DNA from: a virus | Strand: one strand, 5' to 3' | Length of the DNA stretch: 48,048 nucleotides | IMG/VR virus record: IMGVR_UViG_3300050821_003361 | Location: 1-48,048 of that record | In this document: positions 6,911 through 35,715 of the stretch, piece by piece | Layout: every line of letters starts with the position of its first letter | How positions within the stretch are numbered: the stretch's first letter is position 1 | The notes under the pieces: model-generated | What the model saw: the letters and a program-made list of their open reading frames with translations, nothing else | What the model was told of the DNA's origin: nothing | Databases searched by the model: none | Position numbers and translations under genes: made by a program

Positions 6911-6911
6911 A

Positions 6912-8044: not shown

Positions 8045-8546
8045 GAGTTCCGCGACTGGTCGGTGGTAGGTCCTCAACCTCCGTGAAGGGGAACTCTTCT
8101 CGTCTGATGAAGATAAGCTGAGCGATCCGCTGTCCATGTTCGACATAGGCGGCATTGAAGCCTCCATTAAAGAGGAGAATTTGAATCTCGCCGGTATAGT
8201 TTGGATCGATGAGGCCGGGAGAGTTCGCGACGAAAAGTGGCGGGTTCGACGCTGCCATTCCAGATCGGCTGAGGACGAGGGTGCAGAAGCCATCTGGCGG
8301 TCGAATAGCCCACCCAGTCGGGATTGAAACTGTCTGCTGGCTACTGACGAGCCGTTTTGATGGACGGCCCGTTTCAGACATAAGACAAGCGGCGATGTCG
8401 AAGCCAGCCGCGCCGGGGGACGAAAGCAGAGGATATTCGGCGGCCGGATGAAGGCGCTTCAGTCGGATGTGCTTCGTTAGATCGACTGGTTCGGATACCA
8501 GAAGCCTTCCGTATTGGTCGCGCCGTTCTTCGATTTCACCGGGCAT
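8019..8546 (-). CDS. dut: dUTPase (dUTP diphosphatase)
   Basis: 175 aa, trimeric dUTPase family, hydrolysing dUTP to dUMP and pyrophosphate. All five motifs are visible: AAGFDIA, SRSGMA, GLIDPNYTGEI, GQRIAQLI and the C-terminal RGTHGFGSTG arm. The start at 8546 is chosen because GAGGAA lies 6 nt upstream and it overlaps the preceding 53-aa gene (TAATG); longer in-frame versions have no ribosome site. It sits between the two polymerase pieces, one of which carries a uracil-DNA glycosylase-like domain, so uracil exclusion or removal appears to be a theme of this module. Confidence 0.93.
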   Translation of the reverse strand: MPGEIEERRDQYGRLLVSEPVDLTKHIRLKRLHPAAEYPLLSSPGAAGFDIAACLMSETGRPSKRLVSSQQTVSIPTGWAIRPPDGFCTLVLSRSGMAASNPPLFVANSPGLIDPNYTGEIQILLFNGGFNAAYVEHGQRIAQLIFIRREEFPFTEVEDLPPTSRGTHGFGSTGR

Positions 8547-8707
8547 TATTTTCCTCGCGGATAGACTGGTTGACATGAGCAAGGCCAGAGGAGAAGCCAA
8601 CTCGGGTGGCCTCCTCGATCTTGTGCGATTAGCGGACGGCGCGCAAACATCCATCCGAGGCGGAGATGGTCTTCGAGATAAGGATCCCAAGCATAGATCA
8701 TCGTCAT
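8546..8707 (-). CDS. Coupled 53-aa microprotein between the polymerase fragment and dUTPase
   Basis: 53 aa starting MTMIYAWDPYLEDHL, rich in Trp and Arg, with no recognised domain. Its ATG overlaps the stop of the polymerase N-fragment (ATGA) and its stop overlaps the dUTPase start (TAATG), so it is coupled at both ends. That geometry is the main evidence that it is real. Function unknown. Confidence 0.6.
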   Translation of the reverse strand: MTMIYAWDPYLEDHLRLGWMFARRPLIAQDRGGHPSWLLLWPCSCQPVYPRGK

Positions 8708-10440: not shown

Positions 10441-10517
10441 TTGAAGTCCACGAATAGCCAGAGACAGAAGGCGAAAGTCGCGAGTGCGACGACAGGAAGC
10501 CAGTGCCAGTCGATCAT
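10437..10517 (-). CDS. 26-aa single-pass membrane microprotein
   Basis: Sequence MIDWHWLPVVALATFAFCLW followed by six more residues, essentially one transmembrane helix. The ATG overlaps the stop of the methyltransferase gene, and its own TGA overlaps the polymerase start (ATGA at both ends). Such tight tiling is unlikely for a random frame. Function unknown; it could anchor replication factors at the membrane or act on the host envelope. Confidence 0.55.
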   Translation of the reverse strand: MIDWHWLPVVALATFAFCLWLFVDFK

Positions 10518-11878
10518 AACTCTTGCACCGAGGGTTCGACAGTCGGGGCGGGCGCCGTCTTGAGTTTGCCAGTCTTCGCCCGAACGAGGGCGAGATTATA
10601 TGCGCTCTCGTCTAGTTCGATCCCGAGCGCGCGTCGGCGGCTTTCGCGAGCTGCGTCAAGAGATGAACCGCTCCCACAACAGGGGTCAAGTACGAAATCG
10701 TTCGGAAGCGTGGAAGCCTCGATAAGCTCTCGAAGAAGAGAGACAGGCTTCTCGGGTCCATAGTCTCGGTCCGCTCGGCTAACTCGGTTATGGCGGAGGA
10801 TGTCCACCGGACTTGTGATAAGTCCCCGCTTGTTTTTTGTGGCGAAGAAGATGAGTTCGTAGGTTCGTCGGAAGCCTTGTCTCCCCCAGGGGGCGAGACC
10901 TTCTGAGTCACTTTTGGCCCAAATGATAGGAGTTCTGAAAGGGGTCCAGCCAGCTTGGGCGGATATGGTCCTGAGCCAGTCAAAGTGATCGATGTCGGTG
11001 AAGATGAAGATGTTCGCTCGATTTTTACACGTTCGAAACCCTTCGGAAATAATACAAGACAAAAGGGCTCGCGCTGCTTCTGGAGTATCCTCGTAATTAT
11101 GATGATGGACTGTGCGAGCTCGAAATCCTCCACCTCCTGCTGAGACTCCATATGGAGGATCACAGAGAATGAGGTCGAATAAGTCTGAGTCAAGTCCTTT
11201 GAGGATGATTGCGGCGTCTCCATGACGAACCTCGATGTTGGACGCCGATGTGGCGTCGGCTTTTGCGGACTGTCGCCTGACGTGTTCGGCAGCGAAAGCT
11301 GCCTCTTCCTTCTGAATGACTAGCTGAAAGGCTTCACCAGAATTTCTGGCTTTCGATATAGCCGGGTCGGCTAGGTGAGGAGCAATGATTTCAGCCTCTC
11401 GTATTCGTTGAGCGAGGCCAGCGACGGAAGCCGTCGCGCCCTGAGCGACAAATTCTCTCGCCGTGTCTGTGAGCGTCTGGTTAGGACGCTCGGCCTTCCG
11501 CATCGCGTGAGATGCCGCAATAGCACGGATTCGATCTTGCCAATCCAAATCTTCACGGAAGATGTTCTCCTCTAGCTCGGCATCGAACAAATCGGCTGGA
11601 GATAGGTCCGTAAGCCGAGTTACCGGAATCTCTCCAGGGAGGAAAGTCTCCCCATCGCACATGAAGAATTCTTTTGCGTCGGCAATGGTGTCGAGGGCAC
11701 GGAGACGGCGCTCGCCAGCCACTAGATGATACTTCTGATCGAGTCCCCAAGAGACCACTGGTGGGTGAAGCAGTCCCCGTGCAAGAATGGATTCTTTTAG
11801 CGAGGCAAGCTTCGCCAGGTCGATCTCTCGTCGCTGCCTCTGGCCGATTAGAAGGTCAGCCCGTTGAATTCGGAACAC
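10514..11878 (-). CDS. ParB-like nuclease/DNA-binding domain fused to DNA methyltransferase
   Basis: 454 aa from a GTG at 11878 with GGAGAA 5 nt upstream; a longer ATG-initiated frame overlaps the preceding gene and lacks a ribosome site. The N-terminal ParB/Srx fold carries GERRLRAL at about 55-62. The C-terminal amino-methyltransferase has the catalytic DPPY at 239-242 preceding the SAM-binding DPCCGSGSS at 397-405, the order typical of beta-type N4-cytosine/N6-adenine enzymes. Target site unknown. It probably protects phage DNA or marks it for replication or packaging control. The C-terminus EPSVQEL matches the shared C-terminal motif of this phage. It is followed without gap by the 26-aa gene. 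Confidence 0.88.
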   Translation of the reverse strand: MFRIQRADLLIGQRQRREIDLAKLASLKESILARGLLHPPVVSWGLDQKYHLVAGERRLRALDTIADAKEFFMCDGETFLPGEIPVTRLTDLSPADLFDAELEENIFREDLDWQDRIRAIAASHAMRKAERPNQTLTDTAREFVAQGATASVAGLAQRIREAEIIAPHLADPAISKARNSGEAFQLVIQKEEAAFAAEHVRRQSAKADATSASNIEVRHGDAAIILKGLDSDLFDLILCDPPYGVSAGGGGFRARTVHHHNYEDTPEAARALLSCIISEGFRTCKNRANIFIFTDIDHFDWLRTISAQAGWTPFRTPIIWAKSDSEGLAPWGRQGFRRTYELIFFATKNKRGLITSPVDILRHNRVSRADRDYGPEKPVSLLRELIEASTLPNDFVLDPCCGSGSSLDAARESRRRALGIELDESAYNLALVRAKTGKLKTAPAPTVEPSVQEL

Positions 11879-12080
11879 TGGGTTTCTCCGGGAGAATGAC
11901 GTAACCCGCGATGATCTTGCTCTGAACTGAGCCGAGTTGAGTGCCGTCGGCTCGAAAGAAGTCCCACCACTTTGGTCCGGCTTCGATACGGCGAGCATCA
12001 AGAAGGCTAATTGTTGCCAGTCCTTGAGGGGTGGAGATATCAGTGAAGAGCGCGACGCCATGAGGACAGAGGATTGTCAT
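11856..12080 (-). CDS. Hypothetical 74-aa protein
   Basis: Starts MTILCPHGVALFTD at 12080; a 12-residue longer version from 12116 is possible, and neither start has a strong ribosome site. No domain recognised. Its 3' end contains the ribosome site of the ParB-methyltransferase gene, with a 23-nt overlap, implying coupled expression. It has alternating beta-like hydrophobic stretches and a WWDFF aromatic patch. Confidence 0.6.
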   Translation of the reverse strand: MTILCPHGVALFTDISTPQGLATISLLDARRIEAGPKWWDFFRADGTQLGSVQSKIIAGYVILPEKPSVPNSTG

Positions 12081-12158
12081 TTTGTGCGTCTTAGGTCTGG
12101 AGGAAAGAGGGCGCATTTGCGCGCCGAGTTGCTGACGACGAGAAACACAAGTCTATCG

Positions 12159-15123: not shown

Positions 15124-15722
15124 TAGAGGTCCTCCGTGGCGGGTTCGAGGGAATAGTCTTGGCCTAGCGCCGCCGCAAGAGCACGAAGTGCTTCGGGGAT
15201 CGTCCCGTTGTTGTTGATTGCGGCGTGATGAAGGCCGACGAGCTTATGGATATTGTCGTGAAGATCATCGCCCCAGTCTGCGCCCTTTCGGTTTAGACTG
15301 ACGATGATGCAATTTTTTCCCTCGTAGGCGTTCACGAAAGGCCGAAGCTCGTCGATGAAGCGGCAGTCGTCGAAGACGAAGCGGTCATAGTAGCGAGTTT
15401 GGAGTTCGACGGTGCGCTTCGCAAGATCGCCGAAGATTTGTTTGCCGAGCAGACTCTTCATCCATTCGGAATAGGAGATCATCCACTTGCGGTGAGTCAC
15501 TCCGGTTCCGGGGATGAAGGATTTCTTGACCTCGCCGTCGCGGAGATCGATGCCGAGAGTCATCTGGTCTGGATAGAAGGTCGCCAGTAGCGCCATTCGG
15601 ATTGGTTCGGCAATCGATACTCGGCAGAGGCCAGGGTCGCCGTCGACGAGGGCCTCGGCTATGGTAGACTTTCCGGAGCCCGGCGGCCCGGACAGGAAGG
15701 TGAAAGTGGGGAGGCGGATCAT
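15123..15722 (-). CDS. P-loop kinase, deoxynucleoside monophosphate kinase-like
   Basis: 199 aa. Walker A GPPGSGKST is at residues 12-20. The following regions resemble dNMP kinase-like phage enzymes: SIAEPIRMALLATF (substrate lid/helix), RKWMISYSEWMKSLLGKQIFGDLAKRTVE and a FVFDDCRF Walker B-like strand. Probable role: phosphorylation of dNMPs for phage DNA synthesis; substrate specificity cannot be read. The start overlaps the preceding 81-aa gene. The C-terminus EPATEDL carries the shared motif, and GGAGGACC at its end is the ribosome site of the next gene. Confidence 0.75.
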   Translation of the reverse strand: MIRLPTFTFLSGPPGSGKSTIAEALVDGDPGLCRVSIAEPIRMALLATFYPDQMTLGIDLRDGEVKKSFIPGTGVTHRKWMISYSEWMKSLLGKQIFGDLAKRTVELQTRYYDRFVFDDCRFIDELRPFVNAYEGKNCIIVSLNRKGADWGDDLHDNIHKLVGLHHAAINNNGTIPEALRALAAALGQDYSLEPATEDL

Positions 15723-15964
15723 AAGTCCTCCAGACTTGGTTCGATTTTCGGGCCGGACTTGCTCGATCCAGCTTTTGGCGGACCTGCGGATTTGCGACGC
15801 AAAGCCCCTAGTATTAGCACCATTTCGTGCAGCTTGTCGTCGTCTTCGACCGCGCCGGGGTTCGGACCAAGCTGCGCTTTGAGCTGCTGGTATCTCTGGT
15901 GGAGTTCAGCCTGGGAGAGACTGTCGATACCAGAAGCATCGAACAACGTCTTAATATCAGGCAT
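15719..15964 (-). CDS. Hypothetical 81-aa protein ending in EPSLEDL
   Basis: Start ATG 15964 with GGAGG 6 nt upstream. An N-terminal helix (DIKTLFDASGI) is followed by a Gln-rich helix, an acidic segment, a hydrophobic helix (LHEMVLILGALRRK) and a Gly/Ser/Lys linker leading to the terminal EPSLEDL, as if the tail were displayed on a flexible arm. No family recognised. Coupled by overlap to the genes on both sides. Confidence 0.7.
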   Translation of the reverse strand: MPDIKTLFDASGIDSLSQAELHQRYQQLKAQLGPNPGAVEDDDKLHEMVLILGALRRKSAGPPKAGSSKSGPKIEPSLEDL

Positions 15965-16145
15965 GGACTGCCTCCTGCTTTTCAAGCCATTCGCGAAGAA
16001 GCTCGTTGATTAGTTCATGCCGTGAGCCGTATTTCGGCTTCCCACGGATCGGGTCGAAGAAGCGCATTTCGACTCTCGCGGCGATTGTCGCGTCGATATG
16101 AACCTTCCATTGGGTGTAATTCTCTGGACTTCGCGGTCTTCCCAT
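15957..16145 (-). CDS. Ribbon-helix-helix (Arc/CopG-like) DNA-binding protein
   Basis: 62 aa. A short beta strand (WKVHIDATIAA) is followed by two helices (SRHELINELLREWLEKQ), the ribbon-helix-helix arrangement, with a small basic insertion (DPIRGKPKYG). Such dimers bind short inverted or direct repeats. Operator-like TTAA-N7-TTAA elements sit immediately upstream of this gene and upstream of the gene before it, so autoregulation is a natural hypothesis. No good Shine-Dalgarno is present besides AGGAAAAG before the ATG. Confidence 0.65.
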   Translation of the reverse strand: MGRPRSPENYTQWKVHIDATIAARVEMRFFDPIRGKPKYGSRHELINELLREWLEKQEAVHA

Positions 16146-16167
16146 TGCTTTTCCTAGTAACGTCCTG

Positions 16168-16182
16168 TTAATCGGCGGTTAC
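16168..16182 (-). promoter_or_regulatory. Operator-like element (TTAA-N7-TTAC) ahead of the RHH gene
   Basis: TTAA at 16168-16171 and a one-mismatch TTAC at 16179-16182, 7 bp apart. The stretch from 16162 to 16180 is nearly identical to the element at 16447. It occupies the 37-bp gap between two genes. Confidence 0.5.
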
Positions 16183-16422
16183 TCAGAAACGTCCGCCCTT
16201 GAAACCCATTTCCTGCGCCCACCGAACGCAAATCATATGGAAGGCGCGATGCACGCCGGAAAGACGGTTCTTTTCGTCAGGCGATAGCGTCTCGTATCGC
16301 TGTTGTCTGTCTGCCGGATCATGGCCGCCGATCAGATGGTTGGTGTCGATCATGCTTTTCATTTCAAGCTGGTCGAGCAAGCTCTGCATTTCCGGTTCGG
16401 TAATCTGATAGATGCGTGCCAT
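16183..16422 (-). CDS. Hypothetical 79-aa protein
   Basis: Helical, charged protein (ITEPEMQSLLDQLEMKSMID; FHMICVRWAQEMGFKGGRF). No family recognised. It follows the only intergenic gap over 100 bp within the leftward arm, which contains a clear promoter with overlapping operators, so it is the first gene of a separately controlled sub-operon. No strong ribosome site is visible; GAGAGACTG lies before the ATG. Confidence 0.65.
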   Translation of the reverse strand: MARIYQITEPEMQSLLDQLEMKSMIDTNHLIGGHDPADRQQRYETLSPDEKNRLSGVHRAFHMICVRWAQEMGFKGGRF

Positions 16423-16446
16423 TTCAGTCTCTCGACATTCGTCCTG

Positions 16447-16484
16447 TTAATCGGCGGTTAATAGGGTATTTAACCGCATATTAA
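16447..16484 (-). promoter_or_regulatory. Tandem TTAA-N7-TTAA operators
   Basis: Two exact sites, 16447-16461 and 16470-16484, centres 23 bp apart (about two helical turns). The upstream one overlaps the -10 hexamer of the promoter at 16468-16496, which would place a bound protein in position to repress. Confidence 0.65.
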
Positions 16485-16496
16485 GCGCCCTGTCAA
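16468..16496 (-). promoter_or_regulatory. Sigma-70-like promoter for the gene at 16183
   Basis: Minus-strand TTGACA (16496-16491), a 17-bp spacer and TTAAAT (16473-16468). The -35 is perfect and the -10 matches 4 of 6. It lies in a 104-bp gap and overlaps a TTAA-N7-TTAA site. Confidence 0.65.
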
Positions 16497-16526
16497 TAGA
16501 TTAGACGTCTAGTTCATCCTTTATTT

Positions 16527-16934
16527 TCAGACGTTTTTGAGCAGACTGTCGATGTAGTCTTTTGGTAGTTCGTGTTCGGTGAATTCGGGTTGAGGATCGA
16601 CTAACGGAATGGCTGGAGGTCGAAGGTCTTCGCCGTTTACTCCAGCGGCGCGGAGAGCGGCCACGAAGGCTTCGTCACTCGGCTTGAGAGTTAAGACTGA
16701 AGAGCCATCGGCTTCTTTCGTCGGGAGGGCCATACTCGCTCGATAGACGACTGAAGTCTGAGGATGCGATTCGCGCTTCATCGCGGCGCGGAGCGCATAG
16801 AAGCGCTGGCGGAGGGCGAAGGCGGTGTCGAAATCGGGCAGTCGGACGACGAGAGTCTCAGCAGCCCCCCGGAGGAGGGCTGCGAGAAGCTCAGGGCCGA
16901 AACTTGCTACAGAGGGTGCTGACTTTCGAGGCAT
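16527..16934 (-). CDS. Hypothetical 135-aa protein
   Basis: Begins MPRKSAPSVASFG at a TAATG junction with the upstream gene. A basic central region (FALRQRFYALRAAMKRE) and a beta segment (SVVYRASMALP) are visible; the C-terminal half is acidic. No domain recognised. It is the last gene before the promoter gap at 16423-16526, so it likely ends one transcription unit; no hairpin terminator is seen there. Confidence 0.65.
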   Translation of the reverse strand: MPRKSAPSVASFGPELLAALLRGAAETLVVRLPDFDTAFALRQRFYALRAAMKRESHPQTSVVYRASMALPTKEADGSSVLTLKPSDEAFVAALRAAGVNGEDLRPPAIPLVDPQPEFTEHELPKDYIDSLLKNV

Positions 16935-17263
16935 TAGAGGGGAATCTCCTCTTCAGGATTCGTATCGTCGGAGGGGATTTTCTGATAGCTCAGAGCTTTC
17001 GGAGCATTGAGCTTGTCCCATCCGTAGCGACGAAGGAATTCGTCCACTACAGGCCCGAGGCTGGAGCCCTTGACGGCTCGGCAGTTGTAGTCGCCGTCGA
17101 GGGAGAATTCGAGCTTCACATCACCTCCGTGCACTCGACCTTTCGCTTGGATGGTAAAGTCGAATTCTGGAAGGTCGCTGTGCTTCAGGCGTTCGCGAAG
17201 ACGTTTGATTTCACGCTTCAGCGCGCCCTCAAACGAAACAATCGCGACAGTGTGTTCTGACAT
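16934..17263 (-). CDS. Hypothetical 109-aa protein
   Basis: Starts MSEHTVAIVSFEG with AAGGAC upstream. The N-terminal helix ALKREIKRLRERLKH is strongly basic, followed by beta strands (FDFTIQAKG, VKLEFSLDGDYNC). The C-terminus EEEIPL is acidic, reminiscent of SSB-type tails but not diagnostic. Its 3' end carries the ribosome site for the next gene (GAGGAG ... TAATG). Function unknown. Confidence 0.65.
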   Translation of the reverse strand: MSEHTVAIVSFEGALKREIKRLRERLKHSDLPEFDFTIQAKGRVHGGDVKLEFSLDGDYNCRAVKGSSLGPVVDEFLRRYGWDKLNAPKALSYQKIPSDDTNPEEEIPL

Positions 17264-17283
17264 GATGAGTGTCCTTCTGGTTG

Positions 17284-17880
17284 CTAAACGGCTTTCAAGA
17301 ATTTGCCACGCGCCGTCTTTTTCGTGGAACGCATACGATCCGAAAGAATGGAGTGAAGCTCAGTCCCCTCGTAGGGAGTGAGGTCGAGGTCTGGCGGAAC
17401 CCGCTCGATCTTCTCGGCTTCGTCGGCCTTAATCAGGGGTTTCCACTGGCGTTCGTAGAATTCCCACTCGTAGTCGTCGGACGTTACGAGAAGCCATTCC
17501 GCTCGAACTGCGTGGTGGTGTGCTGTCTCGTAGTCCATTGCAAGAAGCCGAATGCAGGCGGACTCGAAAGACTCATGACGCACAGGGTATTTGACAATGT
17601 GCGTCATTACCGTCACACTTTTGGCTTCCTTCTTCGGCCGAGAATGAAAGACGTGGGTCTTCGAAAGCGTCAGTCTTTTCATCGGCCAGATTAGAGGGAC
17701 GTGGCGGTCGATGTAGATTCGATTGCCGGTTAGAGAATAGCCTGCGCCGTAAGGCAGGTCGAATTTGTGACTGATGACCTTCTCGCGCTCGACGTCATCC
17801 ATAATTTCAGGATGGCGCGACAAGAATTGCTGGAACTCGTGCTCCGGCAGGAGCTTGTCGTCGAGGAGGGCGGTGCTCAT
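17284..17880 (-). CDS. Conserved hypothetical protein of phages and Rhizobiales (198 aa)
   Basis: The order HKFDLPYGAGYSLTGNRIYIDRHVP, then RHESFE and a YETAHHHAVRAEW helix, then a charged tail with RVPPDLDLTPYEG, resembles a conserved uncharacterised family I recall from rhizobial genomes and their phages. The His/Glu-rich helix pair could bind metal, but no HExxH is present. The start overlaps the upstream stop (ATGA). Function not established. Confidence 0.6.
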   Translation of the reverse strand: MSTALLDDKLLPEHEFQQFLSRHPEIMDDVEREKVISHKFDLPYGAGYSLTGNRIYIDRHVPLIWPMKRLTLSKTHVFHSRPKKEAKSVTVMTHIVKYPVRHESFESACIRLLAMDYETAHHHAVRAEWLLVTSDDYEWEFYERQWKPLIKADEAEKIERVPPDLDLTPYEGTELHSILSDRMRSTKKTARGKFLKAV

Positions 17881-26365: not shown

Positions 26366-28309
26366 ATGCCCTCAATGACAAGGATGATCCCAAAGGGATC
26401 ACCGCTCCACCAGAAGATCGTCGCGATGATAACGTCGCGGATTCGGTTCGCGGAACGATCTCGGGGCAAGCAGGTCGAGAAGTGGCAGAAGGCGGAAGAA
26501 CTCGCCCTCGCCTGGATGCCCGAAAAAGACATGGACAAAATCCGAGAGTCTTCAAGACGAAGCGGCACGCCAGAGTACACCACCATTCAAATCCCGTACT
26601 CTTACGGCCTCATGATGGCGCAGCATACGTATCTGACTTCGGTGTTCTTTGCCCGAACACCCGTGCATCAGTTCGCGGGCCGTCACGACGAGGGCGAGCA
26701 ACAAGTCACTGCGGTCGAGGCTTTAATTGGGTATCAGATTGAGATCGGGCAGTTTCTCGTCCCATACTACATTTGGGTCTATGATGCAGTCAAGTATGGC
26801 CTCGGGATTCTCCAGACTTGGTGGCAGGACGACGTAGTTCAGTTTTCGAATATCCAAGAGCAGGTTAATCCACTCAGTGGGAAGTCTAGCGCAGTTCAGG
26901 AGTCAATCCAGATTCCGGGCTATCGCGGCAACAAGGTCAAGAACATTTCCCCGTTCGATTTCTACACCGACCCTCGGTTTCCCACCTATCGCTTCCAAGA
27001 GGGCGAATATTGCGCCACCCGAAGCGTCATGGGTTGGAATGAGATGATCCGGCGAAAGAACGTCGGCTACTATATGAACACCGATTTCATTACGTCGAGG
27101 TTCGCGCCCTCTCAACTCATCAACATGGGAGCATCAGCCCTTGAGCGCCCTGAAATCCCTGGGTTCATTCTCGACGCCGAAGATCAAGGTCACCCTATGG
27201 CGTTCTACATCTACGAGGTCTACGTCGACCTTATTCAGTCGGAGTGGGGACTTGGTGATAGTGATTACCCCGAGAAATGGGTTTTTACCATTACGGGTGA
27301 TCTCTCATTGCTTATCGGCGCCCAACCTTTGGGCTCTGCTCATGGAAAGTTTCCGTTTGATATAATGGTCGGGGAGGTAGAGGGCTATGGCCTCTGGACT
27401 CGGGGAACTCCTGAGATTGTTAGACCAGTGCAGAACACTGTCGACTGGCTTCTCAATACGCATTTCTACAATGTCAGAGCGGCGCTCAACAATCAATTCA
27501 TTATCGATCCCTCTAAGATTGTCGTGCGAGACGCTGAAGACGGAGGGCCTGGGTTCATCTACAGACTACGTCCTGAAGCTTACGGAAGTGACGTAAGGAC
27601 GTTTTTCTACCAGGTGCCAGTTCAGGATATGACTCGCGGTCACGTCGCCGACCTCGATACGATGTTCGACATCGGGGAGAAGATGACCGGAATCAACGAC
27701 CAAATGTTCGGCGCCCTCGCCCCCGGACGGAAGACGGCGACTGAAGTCCGAACGTCGACCGGCTTTGGCGTCAATCGCCAGAAGACAATGTCTGATTATG
27801 CGTCAGCAATGGGAATGTCTCCTCATGCGCAAAAACTCGTCCAGCATTCGCAACAGTGGTACGATGGCGACCAGATGTTCCGAGTCATGGGGAGTCTGGC
27901 TACCGACGCTCAACGATTTGTTCAAGTCACTCCTCAAGCTATTGCTGGCTTTTTCGATCTGGTGCCTGTTGATGGTACTCTGCCAATAGATCGAATGGCG
28001 ATGGCGAACCTCTGGCAGCAGTTGATGGGCCAGATGCGGAATTTCCCCCAACTGATGCAACAGCTCGACATGTGGAAGCTGTTCGGCTATATTGGGCAGC
28101 TAGTTGGCATTCGGAACATCAACCAGTTCCGAATTCAAATGTTGCCACCCGGAGTTCAGCCGCAAGGGAACGTCGTTCCTCTGATGCCAAGGCCGGGGGG
28201 CGCGCAGCAGACGCCTTCGGCGCAGGTGCCGTCGATCATCGGGAATGCCGCCGGCCCTGGGCAAAATGGTCTCGATCTGGCTACGCCAGAGTCAACTCCG
28301 GGAGTCTAA
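26366..28309 (+). CDS. Portal protein (podovirus type)
   Basis: 647 aa, large mainly helical protein directly after terminase. Features: N-terminal FAERSRGKQVEKWQKAEELAL, YTTIQIPYSYGLMMAQHTYL, conserved AVKYGLGILQTWW and FDFYTDPR, VDWLLNTHFYNVRAALNNQF, and ALAPGRKTATEVR followed by a long C-terminal helical region and Pro/Gln tail. These fit portals of T7/P22-like and SU10-like phages. It forms the dodecameric packaging and ejection channel. Start at 26366 with AGAAGAGAG upstream. Confidence 0.9.
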   Translation: MPSMTRMIPKGSPLHQKIVAMITSRIRFAERSRGKQVEKWQKAEELALAWMPEKDMDKIRESSRRSGTPEYTTIQIPYSYGLMMAQHTYLTSVFFARTPVHQFAGRHDEGEQQVTAVEALIGYQIEIGQFLVPYYIWVYDAVKYGLGILQTWWQDDVVQFSNIQEQVNPLSGKSSAVQESIQIPGYRGNKVKNISPFDFYTDPRFPTYRFQEGEYCATRSVMGWNEMIRRKNVGYYMNTDFITSRFAPSQLINMGASALERPEIPGFILDAEDQGHPMAFYIYEVYVDLIQSEWGLGDSDYPEKWVFTITGDLSLLIGAQPLGSAHGKFPFDIMVGEVEGYGLWTRGTPEIVRPVQNTVDWLLNTHFYNVRAALNNQFIIDPSKIVVRDAEDGGPGFIYRLRPEAYGSDVRTFFYQVPVQDMTRGHVADLDTMFDIGEKMTGINDQMFGALAPGRKTATEVRTSTGFGVNRQKTMSDYASAMGMSPHAQKLVQHSQQWYDGDQMFRVMGSLATDAQRFVQVTPQAIAGFFDLVPVDGTLPIDRMAMANLWQQLMGQMRNFPQLMQQLDMWKLFGYIGQLVGIRNINQFRIQMLPPGVQPQGNVVPLMPRPGGAQQTPSAQVPSIIGNAAGPGQNGLDLATPESTPGV

Positions 28310-28312
28310 GCT

Positions 28313-28423
28313 ATGCGACTAATCTATCCGGATGACAAGTATTCGGTTCGTGGCGCGATCATCGTTGCGCTTCTCGGCTGGGGAACTCTTATGGTCATTT
28401 ATTGGTCTTCGGGGCTTTGGTGA
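28313..28423 (+). CDS. 36-aa single-pass membrane protein
   Basis: MRLIYPDDKYSVRGAIIVAL, then LGWGTLMVIYWSSGLW: one transmembrane helix after a charged N-terminus. GGGAG is upstream; the stop overlaps the next start (TGATG). Function unknown. Confidence 0.6.
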   Translation: MRLIYPDDKYSVRGAIIVALLGWGTLMVIYWSSGLW

Positions 28424-29103
28424 TGGACATCGATCTCACGATCTCCGATCTTCGAAAGTATGGCTACTCGATCCTTCGGAAGTGTTTCGATCCAGAAGCT
28501 ATTCGAGAGCTTGCGAAAGTGGTCGATGAACTCTATCTGAAGTTTCCAGGCTACCATGTCGAGCCGAAGCAGTTGAGAGAAGTGGGCGCGCCCCCTTTTC
28601 ACTCTTATGTCTTTCGGCCTCACCATCTGGCGCTTCTCAATCAGTTTCTGGGGAAGTGGAAGGTTAGCGAGTCGACCGCAACTCGGCGAGTCGGGCCAAA
28701 AGATGTGACGCACTTTCCGGGTCTCTCGGCCCATATTGATGCATTCTTTCATCCATTCGATCTCACTTTGAACTTCTGGACCCCATTTCAAATCTGCGGC
28801 GATGGCGTCACCCCTGGCCTCTCGGTTTGGGCGACTCCGCTAGACGAGATTGCTTCGGTCGTCGGGCTCTCGCAAGACGTGCGGCCAAGCGTGGAGTGGA
28901 ACTTCGGTCACTTCTCGAGCCGGTGGTATTCGATTGCGAATGGACGAGAGACCTACGACTTGGATCGCCGAGTCTCACCGCGTTTCGAGCCTGGCGATGT
29001 GTGTCTCTTGACGAATTGGACGATCCACGCCACAGGTCCAGGTGATCCGAGGGCTCGTCGGACAAACGTCGAGCTTCGTTTCCAGAAAGTGGAGGAAGAG
29101 TGA
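28423..29103 (+). CDS. 2-oxoglutarate/Fe(II) dioxygenase-like protein (PhyH-like)
   Basis: 226 aa. The HxD motif is H104-I-D106 (LSAHIDAFF), the distal His is H202 in NWTIHATGP and the 2OG-binding Arg is probably R213 in RRTNVELRF; the order and spacing fit phytanoyl-CoA hydroxylase-type double-stranded beta-helix enzymes. The start at 28423 overlaps the 36-aa gene; an upstream in-frame ATG at 28402 lies inside that gene. The substrate is unknown: a nucleobase, a protein side chain or a host metabolite could be hydroxylated. It is followed without gap by a methyltransferase, suggesting a shared modification pathway. Confidence 0.8.
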   Translation: MDIDLTISDLRKYGYSILRKCFDPEAIRELAKVVDELYLKFPGYHVEPKQLREVGAPPFHSYVFRPHHLALLNQFLGKWKVSESTATRRVGPKDVTHFPGLSAHIDAFFHPFDLTLNFWTPFQICGDGVTPGLSVWATPLDEIASVVGLSQDVRPSVEWNFGHFSSRWYSIANGRETYDLDRRVSPRFEPGDVCLLTNWTIHATGPGDPRARRTNVELRFQKVEEE

Positions 29104-29651
29104 TGGGCCTCGGACCAGCGGCGAGAGAACTCTATTCTCTGCTTGACTTGAAGCCACCCGCAAGCATTTGCGATCTCGGTAGTCAGGAGATGAGCACTGG
29201 TGGCGATAATAACGTCCATGAAGGGAGTGCAAGAGACTGGCTAGAGGCTCAGGGCTTCGAATACTCTTGCATCGATATGGACGGCAAGTATGGCGCCCTC
29301 AAGCTCGATCTGAACGTCGCCACTCTTATGGATGTCGGGAGGCAGTTTGACATCGTCACGAATCATGGAACCTCTGAGCATGTGTTCGATCAGGCGAATG
29401 TCTTCAGGCTGATGCACGACTTAACGAAGCCGGGCGGCCTGATGATCCATGCGGTGCCGACGCCGGACTTTGGCGCGCAGCATGGCTTCTATACTTACGA
29501 CGAATACATCTTCAACGATATGGCTCACTATAATGGCTATGAGGTCGTTCAGATGTTTCGTCGGAGTGAGCCATTTGAAATCATCCTCGCGGCGCTCCGG
29601 CGCAAGACGATCGAAAAGTTCGTGACTCCACTTCAAGGGATTTATCGATGA
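29103..29651 (+). CDS. SAM-dependent methyltransferase-like protein
   Basis: 182 aa from ATG 29103 (GGAGG 7 nt upstream; an earlier GTG is in frame). Class I fold cues: motif I ICDLGSQEMSTGG, acidic strand CIDMDGKYGALKLDLN, motif IV FDIVTNHGTSEHVFD, and KPGGLMIHAVPTPDF. The substrate cannot be read; FDQANVFRLMHDLTKPGGL resembles small-molecule or sugar methyltransferases rather than DNA enzymes (no DPPY). Coupled to the dioxygenase upstream. Confidence 0.75.
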   Translation: MGLGPAARELYSLLDLKPPASICDLGSQEMSTGGDNNVHEGSARDWLEAQGFEYSCIDMDGKYGALKLDLNVATLMDVGRQFDIVTNHGTSEHVFDQANVFRLMHDLTKPGGLMIHAVPTPDFGAQHGFYTYDEYIFNDMAHYNGYEVVQMFRRSEPFEIILAALRRKTIEKFVTPLQGIYR

Positions 29652-29980
29652 GCCTCTCGCCGGAAGACATAGCCGATATTAAGGTTGGCCGGGCCTTCGA
29701 AGCGATGCTTGCGACTGAAGGCTGGAAGCATTACGAGCGCCTCGTCAATCAGCACATTGCTAGTCACACGGCGCGCGCCCTCCAGCCGTTTATGGTGAAG
29801 CAAGAGAATAAGGCCAGCCACCAAGTTCTGTTTTCCGCGGTGGATCAACTTCTCAGTTCGGAGGCCGATAAGGGCGCCATTATGGGCTTGACTCTCGCCC
29901 TGACTCTTCCGACCGCTATCATCAGCAACATGACGGACTTGCTATCGAAGTCGAAAGAGGGTGACGACGATGCCACATGA
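29648..29980 (+). CDS. Hypothetical 110-aa helical protein
   Basis: Mostly helical (VGRAFEAMLATEGWKHYERL then VNQHIASHTARALQP), a hydrophobic helix AIMGLTLALTLPTAIISNMT, and an acidic end EGDDDAT. ATGA overlap with the methyltransferase. In the head-gene cluster; possibly a minor head or assembly protein. No family assigned. Confidence 0.6.
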   Translation: MSLSPEDIADIKVGRAFEAMLATEGWKHYERLVNQHIASHTARALQPFMVKQENKASHQVLFSAVDQLLSSEADKGAIMGLTLALTLPTAIISNMTDLLSKSKEGDDDAT

Positions 29981-30155
29981 TCGAGACGGAAATCTACTCG
30001 CGGTCGGTGACACCGTCTCGGTGCCTTGCATCGTTAAAGAGATTCATCAGACTGAGGACTATTGCAACGTGATGCTTCATACACAGCAAGCAATGCCTCC
30101 GTCACACGACCGGACGGTTATCAACCTGAATGCGAAACAAGTGGTGAAGTCGTAA
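29970..30155 (+). CDS. 61-aa small beta-barrel-like protein
   Basis: MPHDRDGNLLAVGDTVSVPC, then IVKEIHQTEDYCNVMLHTQ: the GDxVSVP...V pattern resembles SH3/KOW-like small barrels. Start at 29970 with GAGGGTG upstream; stop overlaps the scaffold start (TAATG). Function unknown. Confidence 0.65.
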   Translation: MPHDRDGNLLAVGDTVSVPCIVKEIHQTEDYCNVMLHTQQAMPPSHDRTVINLNAKQVVKS

Positions 30156-31096
30156 TGTCTGGTGTGGTCGAAAGCTCTCCTGGAAGCAATACGCCAGCGG
30201 AATCCGCTGCGCCCACGACTCCAGTCGAGACGACTCCTGGGTCTGGCGGACTAGAGGACGCATCGCCTCAGTCCGATTCGCCGTTTGTGATCTCAGACGA
30301 CGTGATGAATTCAGCCGATCTGGACGAGGTAGAGATACCCCAGACGGCGAAGCCGCCGGAGCCAGAAGCTCCGGCAACTCAGCCAGAAGTGCAACCGAAG
30401 CCTGGTGAAGCGAAGCCGGCGGCAGCGGCAAAGCCTGCTGCTCCAGCGGAGCCGAAACCGGCTGCGGAAGTGAAGCCGGCTGTTCCTGCTGCCGAGCCCT
30501 CGCCGCAACGGCCTTCAGTCGTCGCGGATCGGCAGGTGCTCTTGCAAGAGGTCGCCAAGAATAGGGAGGCGATAGTCTCCCATCTTGCGAGTGACCGCTT
30601 CAAGTTGACAAAGGAGGAAAGTGATCTGCTCGACACAGATGTCAACTCTGCCATTTCGAAGATCATGGCGCGGACTTACTACGAGGCTACCACCTCCGCG
30701 CTCAACCTGATCGACCGACTGGTGAAGCAAGAGTTGCCCTCTCTGATCGATGGTCACACTCAGTCGACGATGACGTATTCGAAAGCCGAGGATGGCTTCT
30801 GGAGAGAGTGGCCGAACCTTGACCCGAAGGCCGACGGCCCGGCGGTCAATCAGGCGGCGAATCTCTACCGCCAGATGAACCCTCAAGCGCCACTCGAAGA
30901 CGCCATCAAATACGTCGGCACAATGGTTTCGGCTCTCACTGGCAAACCAAAGGTGGCTCCTGCCGCACAGCCAGGTCCGAAGCAGAATGGTTCCCGGCCT
31001 TTCACGCCAGCTTCTGGGGCGGCGAGGGTTGTATCGCAGACTCAAGTCCCGGTTGATCCGAATCCCTTCGCAGGGATGGGGCAAGAGTTCGAATGA
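30155..31096 (+). CDS. Scaffold-like protein
   Basis: 313 aa. Residues 1-125 are Pro/Ala/Glu-rich repeats (KPAAAAKPAAPAEPKPAAEV), then a helical charged region (LLQEVAKNREAIVSHLASDR and ATTSALNLIDRLVKQELPSL), and a C-terminus ending DPNPFAGMGQEFE. Composition, and location between portal and major capsid, fit podophage scaffolding proteins that guide capsid assembly. The start at 30155 is in a TAATG overlap; a longer frame upstream overlaps the preceding gene. Confidence 0.75.
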   Translation: MSGVVESSPGSNTPAESAAPTTPVETTPGSGGLEDASPQSDSPFVISDDVMNSADLDEVEIPQTAKPPEPEAPATQPEVQPKPGEAKPAAAAKPAAPAEPKPAAEVKPAVPAAEPSPQRPSVVADRQVLLQEVAKNREAIVSHLASDRFKLTKEESDLLDTDVNSAISKIMARTYYEATTSALNLIDRLVKQELPSLIDGHTQSTMTYSKAEDGFWREWPNLDPKADGPAVNQAANLYRQMNPQAPLEDAIKYVGTMVSALTGKPKVAPAAQPGPKQNGSRPFTPASGAARVVSQTQVPVDPNPFAGMGQEFE

Positions 31097-31120
31097 TCTC
31101 CTTCCAGAAGGAATTAGGCC

Positions 31121-32359
31121 ATGTCTGGTCTTGCTGGCCTTCGGGGCACCGGCGATTGGGGTGCTGACGAACGCCCGACTGATTTTCGCGAATCGATTCT
31201 CTTCTACAATCCGAATGGCACGGCGCCGATCTTCGCCCTGACCGGCAAAGCCGGTAAGAAGACCGTCACCGATCCGAAGTTCTCGTGGTGGTCCGAGCCG
31301 AACACGCTAGTCCGGCTCTTGTCGTCTGGGCAGCTCGCTTCGACCGATACCACTCTGACCGTCACGGCGGCTGATCCGACTTCGACAACGCCGGGAGTTG
31401 TGTGGAGCGCCGCGACCCATCTGAAGCCTGGCGATATTCTCTATGTCGAGCCGGCTTCGGACGCAGCGACCTTCGCCGGCGAACTTGTCGAGGTGGACAG
31501 TGTGCTGAGCGATACTCAGCTGACTATCGTCCGTGGTGTCGGCGGTACAACGGCCGCGACGATCCCAACGGCGAGCAACCTGACGCTCATGTCGTCAGCC
31601 TACGCCGAAGGCACCGGCGCGCCTATCGCGGTCAGCCGCAATCCGATCGAGTACTTCAACTACACTCAGATCTTCAAAGACACCTATGAGCTGACTGGGA
31701 CGACGACGGAGACCTTCGCTCGTACCGGAGATGCCTGGTCGAACGATAAGAAGAGAAAGATGTGGGACCACGCTCGCGCGATCGAGTTTGCGATCCTCTG
31801 GGGCCGCGCCGCACAGACTACCGGCGGCAACGGGAAGCCGAAACGCTTTATGGGAGGGCTGAGGTCGTTCATTCCTTCGACGAACACCACGGTCTTTTCG
31901 TCGAGTGTCACGGTTTCGAGTTTGCTCACCGCGTTCAATCCGGTGTTCGACTTCGACACCGAAGGTGGCGATACTCGCATCTGCTTCGTTGGCAATACCG
32001 CCATCCTCGAGCTGAACAAGGTGATCCAGAATTCGACCAACCTCCGGATCAACTTCGACAAGCAGATCAACATCTACGGGCTCGATTTCAAAGAGCTTAT
32101 CATGCCACGCGGTCGACTGCTTCTTCGCAGTCACCCTCTGATGAGCCGTCACGGCTTGCTCAAGTCGAGCATGTTCGTTCTCGACTTCGCCTCCGTCAAA
32201 TACGTGGCCCTCAAAGGGCGCGACACAAAGACGAAAGACGACGTCCAGCTGAAGGACGAGGACGTTCGGCGCGGATTCATCCAGACTGAGTGCAGTCTGA
32301 TGGTGGACCGCGGCGGACTGACGTGCGCTTATCTCGGCAATATCTCTTCTGGCCTCTAG
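31121..32359 (+). CDS. Major capsid protein, DUF5309-type
   Basis: 412 aa, following scaffold. N-terminal GLAGLRGTGDWGADERPTDF and SILFYNPNGTAPIFALTGKA, the NPIEYFNYTQIFKDTYELTG core and the C-terminal ECSLMVDRGGLTCAYLGNIS resemble the DUF5309 capsid family of SU10-like podophages (HK97 fold). An Ig-like or beta insertion (about 65-155, TLTVTAADPTSTTPGVVWSA) may form a surface domain. AAGGAATT is the ribosome site. Followed by a hairpin, which may separate capsid mRNA from downstream genes. Confidence 0.88.
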   Translation: MSGLAGLRGTGDWGADERPTDFRESILFYNPNGTAPIFALTGKAGKKTVTDPKFSWWSEPNTLVRLLSSGQLASTDTTLTVTAADPTSTTPGVVWSAATHLKPGDILYVEPASDAATFAGELVEVDSVLSDTQLTIVRGVGGTTAATIPTASNLTLMSSAYAEGTGAPIAVSRNPIEYFNYTQIFKDTYELTGTTTETFARTGDAWSNDKKRKMWDHARAIEFAILWGRAAQTTGGNGKPKRFMGGLRSFIPSTNTTVFSSSVTVSSLLTAFNPVFDFDTEGGDTRICFVGNTAILELNKVIQNSTNLRINFDKQINIYGLDFKELIMPRGRLLLRSHPLMSRHGLLKSSMFVLDFASVKYVALKGRDTKTKDDVQLKDEDVRRGFIQTECSLMVDRGGLTCAYLGNISSGL

Positions 32360-32369
32360 GCCCCTCCGA

Positions 32370-32389
32370 GAGGCGGCGGCCTCCGCCTC
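32370..32389 (+). terminator. GC-rich hairpin after the major capsid gene
   Basis: GAGGCGG (32370-32376) and CCGCCTC (32383-32389) form a 7-bp stem with a 6-nt loop about 10 nt after the stop codon. No U-run follows, so it may stabilise or attenuate mRNA rather than terminate fully. Confidence 0.5.
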
Positions 32390-32431
32390 ACTCAAGCTGG
32401 CCCGAGATGGGCGGCCCAAAGGGTTCGTGAG

Positions 32432-32959
32432 ATGCGTAGCTTGTTACAGAATGTCGTGGCCTATGACTTCGAGGCCAAGGTGGGTCTGAGGATCGGATCG
32501 GTTCGTCAGACGATTACGGCCACCTACAATATGACGCAAGATCAGCCGACAGAGCTTAACCTCTCTGCGGCTGCGACGCAAACAGTTGTGCTGCCGTCGA
32601 TCCTCGGGACGAGTTTCGCCGGAGTGGCGCAAGATCGTCGGCTTCATATCATTGCAAATGTGGGCTCTGGTGGCAATCTTCAGGTCAATGCCCACGCTGA
32701 CGATGGAAGCTCGGCGGTTGTCACCCTTGCTCCGGGACAAGCGGCAATCGTGATCTCGGATCAGGCGGACGACAAGTGGATTGTGATTGTCGGCTCGGCT
32801 ACTGGCGCCCAAGCTGCCAGTCTGACGGCGGTCACGACGACTCAGCCGACGCTGACGGCCTTCGGCTTTACAACGACGGCGCAATTCAACGCTCTGGTGA
32901 ACGATGTCAATTCGATCATCGCTGCGCTGAAGACCGCCGGACTGATGGCGAGCCCGTAA
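32432..32959 (+). CDS. Probable virion decoration or fibre-like protein
   Basis: 175 aa, Thr/Ala/Val-rich and beta-dominated (QTITATYNMTQDQPTELNLS; VVTLAPGQAAIVISDQADDK), with a C-terminal helix FNALVNDVNSIIAALKTAG that could trimerise. Placement after the capsid suggests a head decoration protein; similar beta-rich segments also occur in fibres. No family certain. Confidence 0.55.
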   Translation: MRSLLQNVVAYDFEAKVGLRIGSVRQTITATYNMTQDQPTELNLSAAATQTVVLPSILGTSFAGVAQDRRLHIIANVGSGGNLQVNAHADDGSSAVVTLAPGQAAIVISDQADDKWIVIVGSATGAQAASLTAVTTTQPTLTAFGFTTTAQFNALVNDVNSIIAALKTAGLMASP

Positions 32960-32970
32960 GGGAGACGCTC

Positions 32971-34161
32971 GTGCCTGTAACAGAAGTTTCCGCGGGGTTC
33001 CGGTATCCGGGCCTCGCGGACTATGTCTCCGCGATGGAGCGCTGGGTTCATCCGGAAGTCCAGCGCGCCCTCGACACCCCCGCAGCCCGAGGGCGGGAGC
33101 GGTTGCTCTTTGGATGTCTGGTCTGGGGGGATAAGTATGTCGATCGGTTTCTCGAGTTTTGCGTGCCCTCGCTTCTTGCGTCTGGCAATGTGGATGTCTT
33201 TCGAGATAGTCTGTTCCTTATTCATACGGATGTCAAGAACCGCAAGAGGGTTGAGAGGGTGCTAGAATGTCTCGAGCCGTTCGGCGAGGTTGAGGTTCGA
33301 GCGATCCCGCAAGATGTCATTCGCAAGGCGAAAGAGTATCCGATGAACAAGTATTGGGTACTTGGGGCAGCGAACTACATTCATATGAACACCGCCAAGT
33401 GGCGCGGCTACGGCCATCACCTTCTGATGCCTGATCACATCTATTCGATGGGGTTCTTCGGGAATCTGAAGCGCCTTCGGGATGAGGGCCATCAGGCTAT
33501 TATTCGTGGCGGACTCAGTGCGAAAGTGGAAGAGGTTGGGCCGATTCTAAAGACGCAGAATTGCGCTTTTAAGGCTGAAGACCTCAACGCTCTGGCGATG
33601 AGTCATCTCCATCCGCAATTCGAGGCTCTCGTACTGAATGGTCGGAACGATTATCCGATCAGTACACTCGTCGTTCTTGTCGTCGACGGCGCGGCGGTGA
33701 TCGTCAGTCCACACTCGGCGACGGTCTATATGTCGAACGCGGTGCTTCGTCGCGCCCAGCTTCGCCTTTTCAATACGATCGACGGACAGCTTCCGTATAT
33801 CATTCCGGAAGATATTGCGCCGTACTTTCCGCAGCCGAAGGATGGGATGTCTTACATCGAGATTTCCGATGCGGAAAAGGGTGCGAACCCGAAGGGTTCT
33901 GGCTGGACTCTCGTTGACTTTTGCGTCGAGTATTGGATGCTGACCTATGCTGATCCGAAGTTCTTACGGTTCTTCCATTCGCCGACGATCATGCAGTTCC
34001 CGAAGGGCTACAAGCCGCCAGTCAAGCCGATGGGGGAGGCGGAATTCGGGAAGAGGTTAGATGAACTCTGGACTTCGGTCGATAAGATGAAGGAACCCAT
34101 GCGGCAAGTCTATGCGGATCGAAAGCGGATCGAGGCAGAGAAATGCGCAGAAGTGACGTAG
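32971..34161 (+). CDS. Glycosyltransferase-like protein
   Basis: 396 aa from GTG 32971 (GGGAGACG upstream); a much longer frame reads through the previous gene and is rejected. The opening LLFGCLVWGDKYVDRFLEFC, FLIHTDVKNRKRVERVL and MPDHIYSMGFFGNLKRLRD resemble GT-A-type glycosyltransferase-like proteins carried by phages and bacteria, with MPDHI as a candidate DxD-like metal site. C-terminal helices follow. Target unknown: capsid, phage DNA or host surface glycans. Overlaps the next methyltransferase by 19 nt. Confidence 0.6.
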   Translation: MPVTEVSAGFRYPGLADYVSAMERWVHPEVQRALDTPAARGRERLLFGCLVWGDKYVDRFLEFCVPSLLASGNVDVFRDSLFLIHTDVKNRKRVERVLECLEPFGEVEVRAIPQDVIRKAKEYPMNKYWVLGAANYIHMNTAKWRGYGHHLLMPDHIYSMGFFGNLKRLRDEGHQAIIRGGLSAKVEEVGPILKTQNCAFKAEDLNALAMSHLHPQFEALVLNGRNDYPISTLVVLVVDGAAVIVSPHSATVYMSNAVLRRAQLRLFNTIDGQLPYIIPEDIAPYFPQPKDGMSYIEISDAEKGANPKGSGWTLVDFCVEYWMLTYADPKFLRFFHSPTIMQFPKGYKPPVKPMGEAEFGKRLDELWTSVDKMKEPMRQVYADRKRIEAEKCAEVT

Positions 34162-34733
34162 CAACTCTGGGCTTCGCTAAGCCGCTTCAGCACGAAGACG
34201 AGCTAGAAGGGCTGATTGATCTATTCCAGACCGCTGGAGTTCGTTCCTATCTCGAAATTGGGGTGAGATACGGAGGCTCCTTCGAGCGGATTGTGGAGTC
34301 TCTGCCGAAGGGTTCTCGTGGTGTTGCAGTCGATTTTCCTGGCGGCGCCTTCGGTGACGAGGAATCCGCTCCGATCTTGTGTTCGGCCCTTCGCCGGCTG
34401 AAGTTCAAAGGTTATCTGGTGAAGTCGATTTTCGGACCCTCGCAGGCGCCGGAAGTTATCGAGCGCGTAAAGAGGTTCGCCCCGTTTGATGCGGTGCTTC
34501 TAGATGCGGATCACTCTTATGAAGCGATTCGGAAGGATTTTGAAGTCTATGCTCCGATGTCTAAGCTCGTCGTTCTGCACGATGTCGCAGCTCCTGAGAC
34601 AGTTCGGTCGAAAGATGGGCTGTCGGTAGAGGTGCCGAGATTCTGGCAAGAGATTAAGAAGTCCTATCCCCATTGGGAGATCGCACGAAGTGCTTCTCTG
34701 ATGGGTATGGGCGTTCTGTTTTGGCGCCCATAG
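34143..34733 (+). CDS. Class I SAM methyltransferase (Methyltransf_24-like)
   Basis: 196 aa. SYLEIGVRYGGSF is motif I, GVAVDFPGGAFGD the acidic loop, and FDAVLLDADHSYEAIRKDFE with LVVLHDVAAPE the post-motif strand and helix characteristic of Methyltransf_24/CmcI-like enzymes, which often methylate sugars or small molecules. It overlaps and follows the glycosyltransferase-like gene, suggesting the two act on the same product. It is followed by an operator element. Confidence 0.75.
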   Translation: MRRSDVATLGFAKPLQHEDELEGLIDLFQTAGVRSYLEIGVRYGGSFERIVESLPKGSRGVAVDFPGGAFGDEESAPILCSALRRLKFKGYLVKSIFGPSQAPEVIERVKRFAPFDAVLLDADHSYEAIRKDFEVYAPMSKLVVLHDVAAPETVRSKDGLSVEVPRFWQEIKKSYPHWEIARSASLMGMGVLFWRP

Positions 34734-34974: not shown

Positions 34975-35715
34975 ATGGATCGAGATACTGCGGTCTCGAG
35001 GATTCAGCAGAAGCTTGGCTTCAGAAGTGATCGCGTCACGGAGATCCAGAACGCGTTGAACGACGCGCAACTCGAACTGGAGAATAGCCAGAGTCTGCCG
35101 TGGTTTCTGATCCAGCAGAATCAGGCATTTTCAATCACGCCGGCGAGTCCGCCGACTGCGACCCCTCTGCCTGTTGCGCTCCCAACTGGCTTCATTAAGG
35201 AGGTCGATGACGAAGACGGGAACATCAGCTATCAGCAGACGACTCCGGGGCCACAGGTCTTTCTGAAGAAGATGGACTACAAGCAGGCGGAAATCTTCTT
35301 TTTCGCGCGCCGCAACGTCTGGTATGATCAGAATGTCGAAATCATCCAGTCGGAAGATACGACGTTTACCGCGGGTCTTCCGATTGCGTATGTCTTGCAG
35401 AAGAATGCCATCGTCTTCTACCCCGGACCAGATCAGCCATATACTTTTCGCTGGTCGTATTACACTCACGATCAGCCCTTAAATGGGAGTAATGTGACGA
35501 GTCAATGGCTCCAGTTCGCGCCTTGGTTGCTCATTGGAAAGGCTGGAATGCTCTTCTCTGCCGACACTCGCGACGCCGACGCCTATGCGGCATTTCAGGC
35601 GGTCGTCTATGGAGACAAGTCTAAAGGGATTCGAGGGGCCGAAGACGCATTTCTTGCTCAGTGTTATGAGCGCGAACTCGGCGGTCGAACCTATCGGATG
35701 GGAGGAAGACTCTGA
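34975..35715 (+). CDS. Head-tail adaptor-like protein
   Basis: 246 aa. N-terminal helix region (AVSRIQQKLGFRSDRVTEIQ; LNDAQLELENSQSLPWFLI) then a beta core and C-terminal helices (DADAYAAFQAVVYGDKSKGI). This pattern matches P22 gp4/SU10-type adaptors, which attach below the portal. Context supports it: after capsid, before tail genes. Stop overlaps the next start (TGATG). Confidence 0.7.
   Translation: MDRDTAVSRIQQKLGFRSDRVTEIQNALNDAQLELENSQSLPWFLIQQNQAFSITPASPPTATPLPVALPTGFIKEVDDEDGNISYQQTTPGPQVFLKKMDYKQAEIFFFARRNVWYDQNVEIIQSEDTTFTAGLPIAYVLQKNAIVFYPGPDQPYTFRWSYYTHDQPLNGSNVTSQWLQFAPWLLIGKAGMLFSADTRDADAYAAFQAVVYGDKSKGIRGAEDAFLAQCYERELGGRTYRMGGRL

Follow-up and report, generated by a model that had tools for sequence, protein, structure and literature searches.

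A slot behind SU10-type capsid genes in which glycosyltransferases recur, and two putative virion-decorating cassettes in the head operon of an uncultured phage

The stretch analysed here (the window) is a single IMG/VR virus record, IMGVR_UViG_3300050821_003361, 48,048 bases long and from an uncultured phage with short-tail-like genes. Its late head operon carries two pairs of accessory genes: an oxygenase-like gene coupled to a methyltransferase gene, and a glycosyltransferase-like (GT-like) gene coupled to a second methyltransferase gene. Comparison with related loci shows that glycosyltransferases recur in the slot occupied by the second pair, behind SU10-type capsid genes; this is a stronger result than any concerning the four window genes themselves. 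For these we propose, with a probability of about one half, that both cassettes act on a virion protein, the GT-like protein and its methyltransferase adding and capping a sugar and the oxygenase cassette adding hydroxyl and methyl groups.

The interval between the major capsid protein (MCP) gene and the neck gene measures 306-7962 bp in 69 loci in which it is complete, and is a true hypervariable slot. A profile seeded with 13 slot proteins, iterated and run on all open reading frames (ORFs) of 80 or more residues in 164 records, finds 28 distinct Anp1-like glycosyltransferases (GTs), every one of them downstream of the MCP gene and none elsewhere, a count of non-independent events because these proteins are related by descent. 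The usual slot GT of the relatives is mostly 220-330 residues long, lies behind the capsid gene and is present in 21 of the 69 complete intervals. Its start falls 4 to 5132 bp past the MCP gene; in 13 of the 28 the distance from the capsid stop is under 150 bp, so that an intervening head-fibre-like gene is not required. Among cultivated phages, Microcystis phage Mel-JY34 carries the slot GT, directly behind its MCP gene. Both aspartate columns of the DxD motif are invariant (28/28), and 15 of 16 aligned slot GTs match phrog_1574, a family of 'unknown function'. The member in locus L241 scores above the Anp1 cut-off (1.3e-10), and profile comparison with solved structures places procollagen galactosyltransferase 1 (E 0.0035) and Mnn9 (E 0.016) nearest to the slot GT. 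MCP and GT identities are correlated (Spearman 0.78 over 378 pairs), as would be expected of two genes with a long common history in which the GT is frequently lost. We found no publication describing an Anp1-like GT next to a phage capsid gene, or an oxygenase in a phage head module, in a search mostly outside subscription journals.

The seed loci had been fetched by their portal or capsid gene, a possible source of bias, and a reciprocal IMG/VR scan by the slot GT alone was run to remove it. Among its best 80 loci 76 are new, 12 of them on contigs already in the first set as judged by contig name. An SU10-type MCP is recognised in 65 of the 76, and the GT starts between -252 and +1043 bp from the MCP stop in 62 of these 65, the exceptions being L166 (2919 bp), L173 (4831 bp) and L240, where the GT precedes the MCP gene. 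In 6 further loci of the 76 the GT lies less than 1 kb from an edge, and 5 lack a recognised MCP (L184, L187, L188, L190 and L205); in L205 the GT stands directly behind a head-tail connector gene. The recognised MCPs include a second type, whose profile was built from five upstream genes of the same reciprocal loci; the four of these five that were scanned all match SU10_MCP at 9.1e-88 or better.

The slot holds other proteins as well. A second GT-like family of 7 proteins occurs in it beside phrog_1574-type GTs, and a 555-residue protein of L189 (5747-7414) consists of a phrog_1574-type GT preceded by an N-terminal part resembling this second family. In L007 a 780-residue protein with a hydrophobic N-terminal stretch (15309-17651) fills the slot in place of the GT-like and methyltransferase genes.

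The window's late operon runs in the order TerL, portal, oxygenase-like, methyltransferase 1, small gene, scaffold-like, SU10-type capsid, head-fibre-like, GT-like, methyltransferase 2, neck-like and collar-like, with the genes from portal to neck-like on the plus strand. The MCP (31121-32359; SU10_MCP 5.9e-32) is followed by a small head-fibre-like protein (32432-32959), whose C-terminal 52 residues match phrog_6994 'head fiber protein' at 3.3e-6. The GT-like gene (32971-34161, GTG start, 396 residues) comes next and overlaps methyltransferase 2 (34143-34733) by 19 bases. The right border of the slot is a gene at 34975-35715 with homologues in 95 of the 164 records, which we call neck or adaptor from its position. 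The coordinates, gene order and couplings given by an earlier sequence-only reading of this DNA prove exact, and the four genes are real and placed as claimed. Its four labels fared less evenly: methyltransferase 1 scores above a family cut-off and methyltransferase 2 lies at one, while the oxygenase and GT-like proteins reach no family model and are labelled on indirect evidence. A sequence search of solved structures returned nothing informative for any of the four proteins.

Like the phrog_1574/Anp1-like (GT62-like) capsid-adjacent GTs, the window's GT-like gene sits in the MCP-to-neck slot; unlike them, its product belongs to another family and is paired with a methyltransferase through the overlap, and the phrog_1574-type profile finds no member among the window ORFs, the GT-like protein included. 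A relative is a 42% identical domain in the otherwise unrelated phage L001 (IMGVR_UViG_3300014638_000005), encoded inside the head module directly behind a TylF methyltransferase (1.4e-31), an enzyme of sugar type. Both genomes place a GT-like gene beside a methyltransferase in the head module. L001 differs from the window in its capsid family (Major_capside), in the TylF type of its methyltransferase, in having no recognised oxygenase, and in its longer GT-like gene, which carries a second, weakly related domain (hhalign probability 67%, E 5e-5). The L001 head module also encodes a 940-residue protein (6426-9248) with an Intein splicing domain (1.8e-10). A further relative is encoded on a Solidesulfovibrio carbinolicus plasmid (tblastn E 8e-4; pairwise identity 24% across 218 columns), where the cluster around it includes pseC, sugar-nucleotide enzymes, a TIGR04372 glycosyltransferase and several methyltransferases. 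No relative of the GT-like protein was found in phages, none of 44 pattern matches in genome contigs was confirmed, and a second viral scan returned only the same contig as before. A model of the GT-like protein built from two sequences has TarS as its best fold match (Z 8.4 over 131 residues, root mean square deviation 3.1), and 40 of the 50 rows listed in the fold comparison are glycosyltransferases or the GT-like domain of LH3; we treat the GT-A resemblance of this weak model as supportive only. On the strength of the L001 pair, the plasmid sugar cluster and this model, the protein is kept as 'GT-like', a putative GT-A glycosyltransferase.

Both methyltransferases are of the class I S-adenosylmethionine-dependent type. 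Methyltransferase 1 (29103-29651 from its ATG, with a GTG at 29100) overlaps the oxygenase stop by one base and scores 32.2 bits with Methyltransf_23 (1.1e-7), above the 27-bit Pfam cut-off. Methyltransferase 2 matches Methyltransf_24 (2.6e-5) at 25.5 bits in the protein scan, against a cut-off of 26.3, and at 26.4, just over, in the genome search; RMNT_CmcI is matched slightly under its cut-off (9.7e-5). These two best matches, Methyltransf_24 and rhamnosyl O-methyltransferase/CmcI, point towards O-methylation of a small molecule or sugar, and the protein is described as sugar O-methyltransferase-like. Four methyltransferase families were tallied in 50 records picked from L001, L115 and the 69 interval loci, a selection that includes L115 and all 21 GT-positive interval loci. 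Head-module methyltransferases above cut-off occur in five of the 24 records whose head module contains or adjoins a GT or GT-like gene (the window, with two, L001, L111, L122 and L139) and in none of the other 26, a contrast that is post hoc and small. The methyltransferase above cut-off in G046, the record of L143, lies about 17 kb from the MCP gene, outside the head module.

The oxygenase-like protein (28423-29103, 226 residues) contains the HxD...H iron triad, with an arginine eleven residues past the distal histidine, so that the residues for iron and 2-oxoglutarate stand in the right geometry; its residues H104, D106, H202 and R213 are as the sequence-only reading gave them. The geometry was scored as HxD, an H-x-[S/T] 80-119 residues later and an arginine eleven past that histidine. 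This combination arises in 88 of 20,000 shuffles of the protein's own sequence. Among 1,127 ORFs of 180-320 residues from the loci surveyed, 6 have it, the window's own included. As far as the accessible part of the source describes it, EctD has the spacing His-248/Arg-259, and the distal histidine motif of its group is His-x-Ser (PMC2871039). The window protein resembles EctD and PhyH in its HxD and in the spacing to the distal histidine (98 residues, against 102 in EctD), and EctD in the arginine at +11; unlike the PhyH-like group as described in that part of the source (PMC2871039), it has His-Ala-Thr (H202, T204), in which the hydroxyl is kept. Since it falls short of the Pfam PhyH cut-off, the protein is not filed as a PhyH member, and is predicted only to work like a 2-oxoglutarate/Fe(II) (2OG) oxygenase. 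One-sequence pattern scans of viral contigs, phages, genome contigs and plasmids, which reach close relatives only, found no relative of it.

This first cassette occupies its own site, between the portal and scaffold-like genes. The left border is the portal gene (26366-28309; phrog_332, 9.9e-23; portal phrog_1216, 8.8e-8), which by tblastn matches the 'putative portal protein' of Caulobacter phage Kuura. The right border is a small gene kept in relatives (29648-29980), followed by the scaffold-like gene (30155-31096), so named because it precedes the capsid gene; the latter has homologues in 110 of the 164 records and no Pfam match above cut-off. L007, whose portal is the closest to that of the window (73% identity), has the same gene order without either pair. 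Because its homologue of the small gene (33% identity, E 3e-16) directly overlaps the portal stop, the stretch 28310-29647 reads in sequence comparison as inserted in the window, or else as lost from L007. Within it, a 36-residue ORF at 28313-28423, single-transmembrane-like as judged by eye from its translation, abuts the oxygenase start. Portal-to-small/scaffold intervals are at most 501 bp in 77 of 81 distinct cases; the long ones are those of L009 (5125 bp), L122 and L124 (2316 bp) and the window (1339 bp), and the oxygenase/methyltransferase 1 cassette is a rare insertion. Site 1 of L122 and L124, which share this cargo and may be one virus, holds an FkbM methyltransferase (the L122 copy matches the Pfam model at 7.1e-11), and L122 has in addition a GT behind its MCP gene. 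In L009 (portal 69% identical) about 5 kb of fibre-like ORFs lie between portal and scaffold (7216-12145).

The pairs are accessory genes, as expected of cassettes, and the earlier view of them as separate units holds: both are absent from L007, and each is a cassette at a site of its own. That reading had also named absence of the genes from otherwise syntenic phages, with no effect on phenotype, as what would speak against it; L007 bears out the first half of that statement only. Guanine+cytosine content and codon use of the four genes lie within or near the range of the structural genes (codon adaptation index to core 0.70-0.79, against 0.70-0.80), and by these measures there is consequently no sign of a very recent gain.

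Taken together, these observations suggest that the two cassettes build a decoration on a virion protein from the same operon. The GT-like enzyme would add a sugar to the capsid or to the head-fibre-like protein, an acceptor suggested by the slot's link to the capsid gene, and methyltransferase 2 would cap the added sugar by O-methylation. Cassette 1 would further hydroxylate and methylate either this sugar or the residue that bears it; the oxygenase step is the least certain and may belong to the same product or to another. Gene order, cassette borders, the methyltransferase families and the recurrence of GTs in the slot are observed; from sequence we infer the sugar transfer, the virion-protein acceptor, the order of the steps and the single pathway for both cassettes. 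The proposed coupling of glycosylation and methylation gains support because the slot is a recurrent GT slot, because L001 has a GT-like/TylF pair and because the plasmid relative lies in a cellular sugar cluster. Judged by what the slot holds in related phages, the GT-like and methyltransferase 2 pair probably replaces an older capsid-adjacent glycosylation function, in a non-homologous replacement.

Several observations weigh against this account. The GT-like protein matches no glycosyltransferase family in Pfam, PHROGs or NCBIfam, has no profile relation to the usual slot GT (hhalign probability 0.22%), and reads PDH at residues 154-156 where DxD is expected; the PDH is kept in L001, and the plasmid relatives have A-D. 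Its model has a mean predicted local distance difference test (pLDDT) score of 41, a Z near 8 is middling by the comparison tool's own note, and no Foldseek match falls under E 1e-3. The oxygenase reaches no family cut-off, scoring far below that of Pfam PhyH (PF05721; 13.2 against 22 bits, E 0.11), a domain found in none of the 50 records at E up to 0.05, the window included, and its single-sequence AlphaFold model, in which a double-stranded beta-helix would be expected, is poor (pLDDT 34). Many slots contain structural-looking proteins, and the usual GT is present in only 5 of the 42 loci of the nearer clade, defined by an MCP identity of 50% or more; the farther clade has it in 16 of 26. 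The virion acceptor is itself deduced from gene arrangement.

The sequence-only reading had left the substrate open among a virion protein, a DNA base and a surface glycan. The virion protein is now favoured and the DNA base disfavoured, with a host surface glycan retaining part of the probability. Enzymes that alter the surface glycan of the infected host, excluding other phages or aiding progeny release, could lie in the late operon for reasons of timing only, and both the cellular sugar cluster around the plasmid relative and the transmembrane-like ORF upstream of the oxygenase would suit them. Late expression is equally what virion-acting enzymes need, and a slot GT that keeps to the capsid gene in 62 of the 65 reciprocal loci, with an identity that tracks the MCP, fits a capsid partner better, so we consider a host-surface role unlikely. 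Hypermodification of a base of the phage genome by the oxygenase, the GT-like protein and the methyltransferases is very improbable. The combination of oxygenase, GT and methyltransferase is known from TET-type phages, and the window encodes a ParB_N/N4-N6 DNA methyltransferase (10514-12061, minus strand); yet the oxygenase has no TET/JBP Pfam match at E up to 1, no pyrimidine-hypermodification enzyme occurs among the 18 other window proteins scanned, the slot GTs are Anp1-like, and the genes lie within the head module rather than adjoining replication genes.

The two cassettes might also be unrelated cargo, independent of each other, with separate substrates and with one or neither acting on the virion. 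Content varies at both sites, as in the fibre-like proteins at site 1 of L009 and the 780-residue slot protein of L007; the two pairs occur together in no other locus, and BLAST against the 164 records returns no relative for either the oxygenase or methyltransferase 1. That all five searched records with a head-module methyltransferase, L122 included, have a GT or GT-like gene within or next to that module argues for a connection, and independence appears to us somewhat unlikely. A more specific form of virion decoration can be imagined, in which the oxygenase would hydroxylate a side chain of the capsid or head-fibre protein during assembly, the GT-like protein would glycosylate that hydroxyl and the methyltransferases would cap the product, a counterpart of the hydroxylysine glycosylation of collagen, with SU10-type phages sharing an old and mostly unannotated capsid-glycosylation slot. 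We regard this version as quite improbable.

Elsewhere in the window, on the minus strand, a family-A DNA polymerase is split in two (6912-10440) around an ORF at 7673-8293. The N-terminal part (8704-10440) joins a Uracil-DNA glycosylase superfamily domain (3.5e-18) and an exonuclease to the start of the polymerase, and the C-terminal part spans 6912-7676. The same breakpoint (profile position ~133-143) recurs in six others of 24 records (G002, G003, G012, G030, G047 and W02), with spacings from 18 bp to more than 1 kb, and several relatives are contiguous. No Rfam match, and hence no known intron family, was found in the window. The N4/N6 DNA methylase with its ParB_N domain lies next to this region, and the left end is taken up by a 1741-residue ORF on the plus strand (98-5323) with no Pfam match at E 0.001.

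The closest described parallels to the favoured virion-protein decoration are mycobacteriophages. In the accessible part of the source, cluster O phages have three glycosyltransferases downstream of an O-methyltransferase, which are said to modify the capsid and tail tube (PMC11600133). As in Che8, Rita and the cluster O phages, so far as the accessible text of the sources goes, the genes at issue would be phage-encoded glycosyltransferases, in cluster O with an O-methyltransferase (PMC11600133, PMC11256854). The window differs in its SU10-type capsid, its short-tail-like genes and, as far as tested, its GT families, as well as in the placing of the genes, at two sites within the head operon and together with an oxygenase; here the system is known from genes alone. 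If the proposal is true, capsid glycosylation would not be a peculiarity of mycobacteriophages but would be widespread in environmental phages with SU10-type capsids and readable from gene position, and phrog_1574 would gain a testable role. The window would then add methyl capping, and possibly hydroxylation, to this repertoire, opening the question of what a phage capsid glycan does outside animals.

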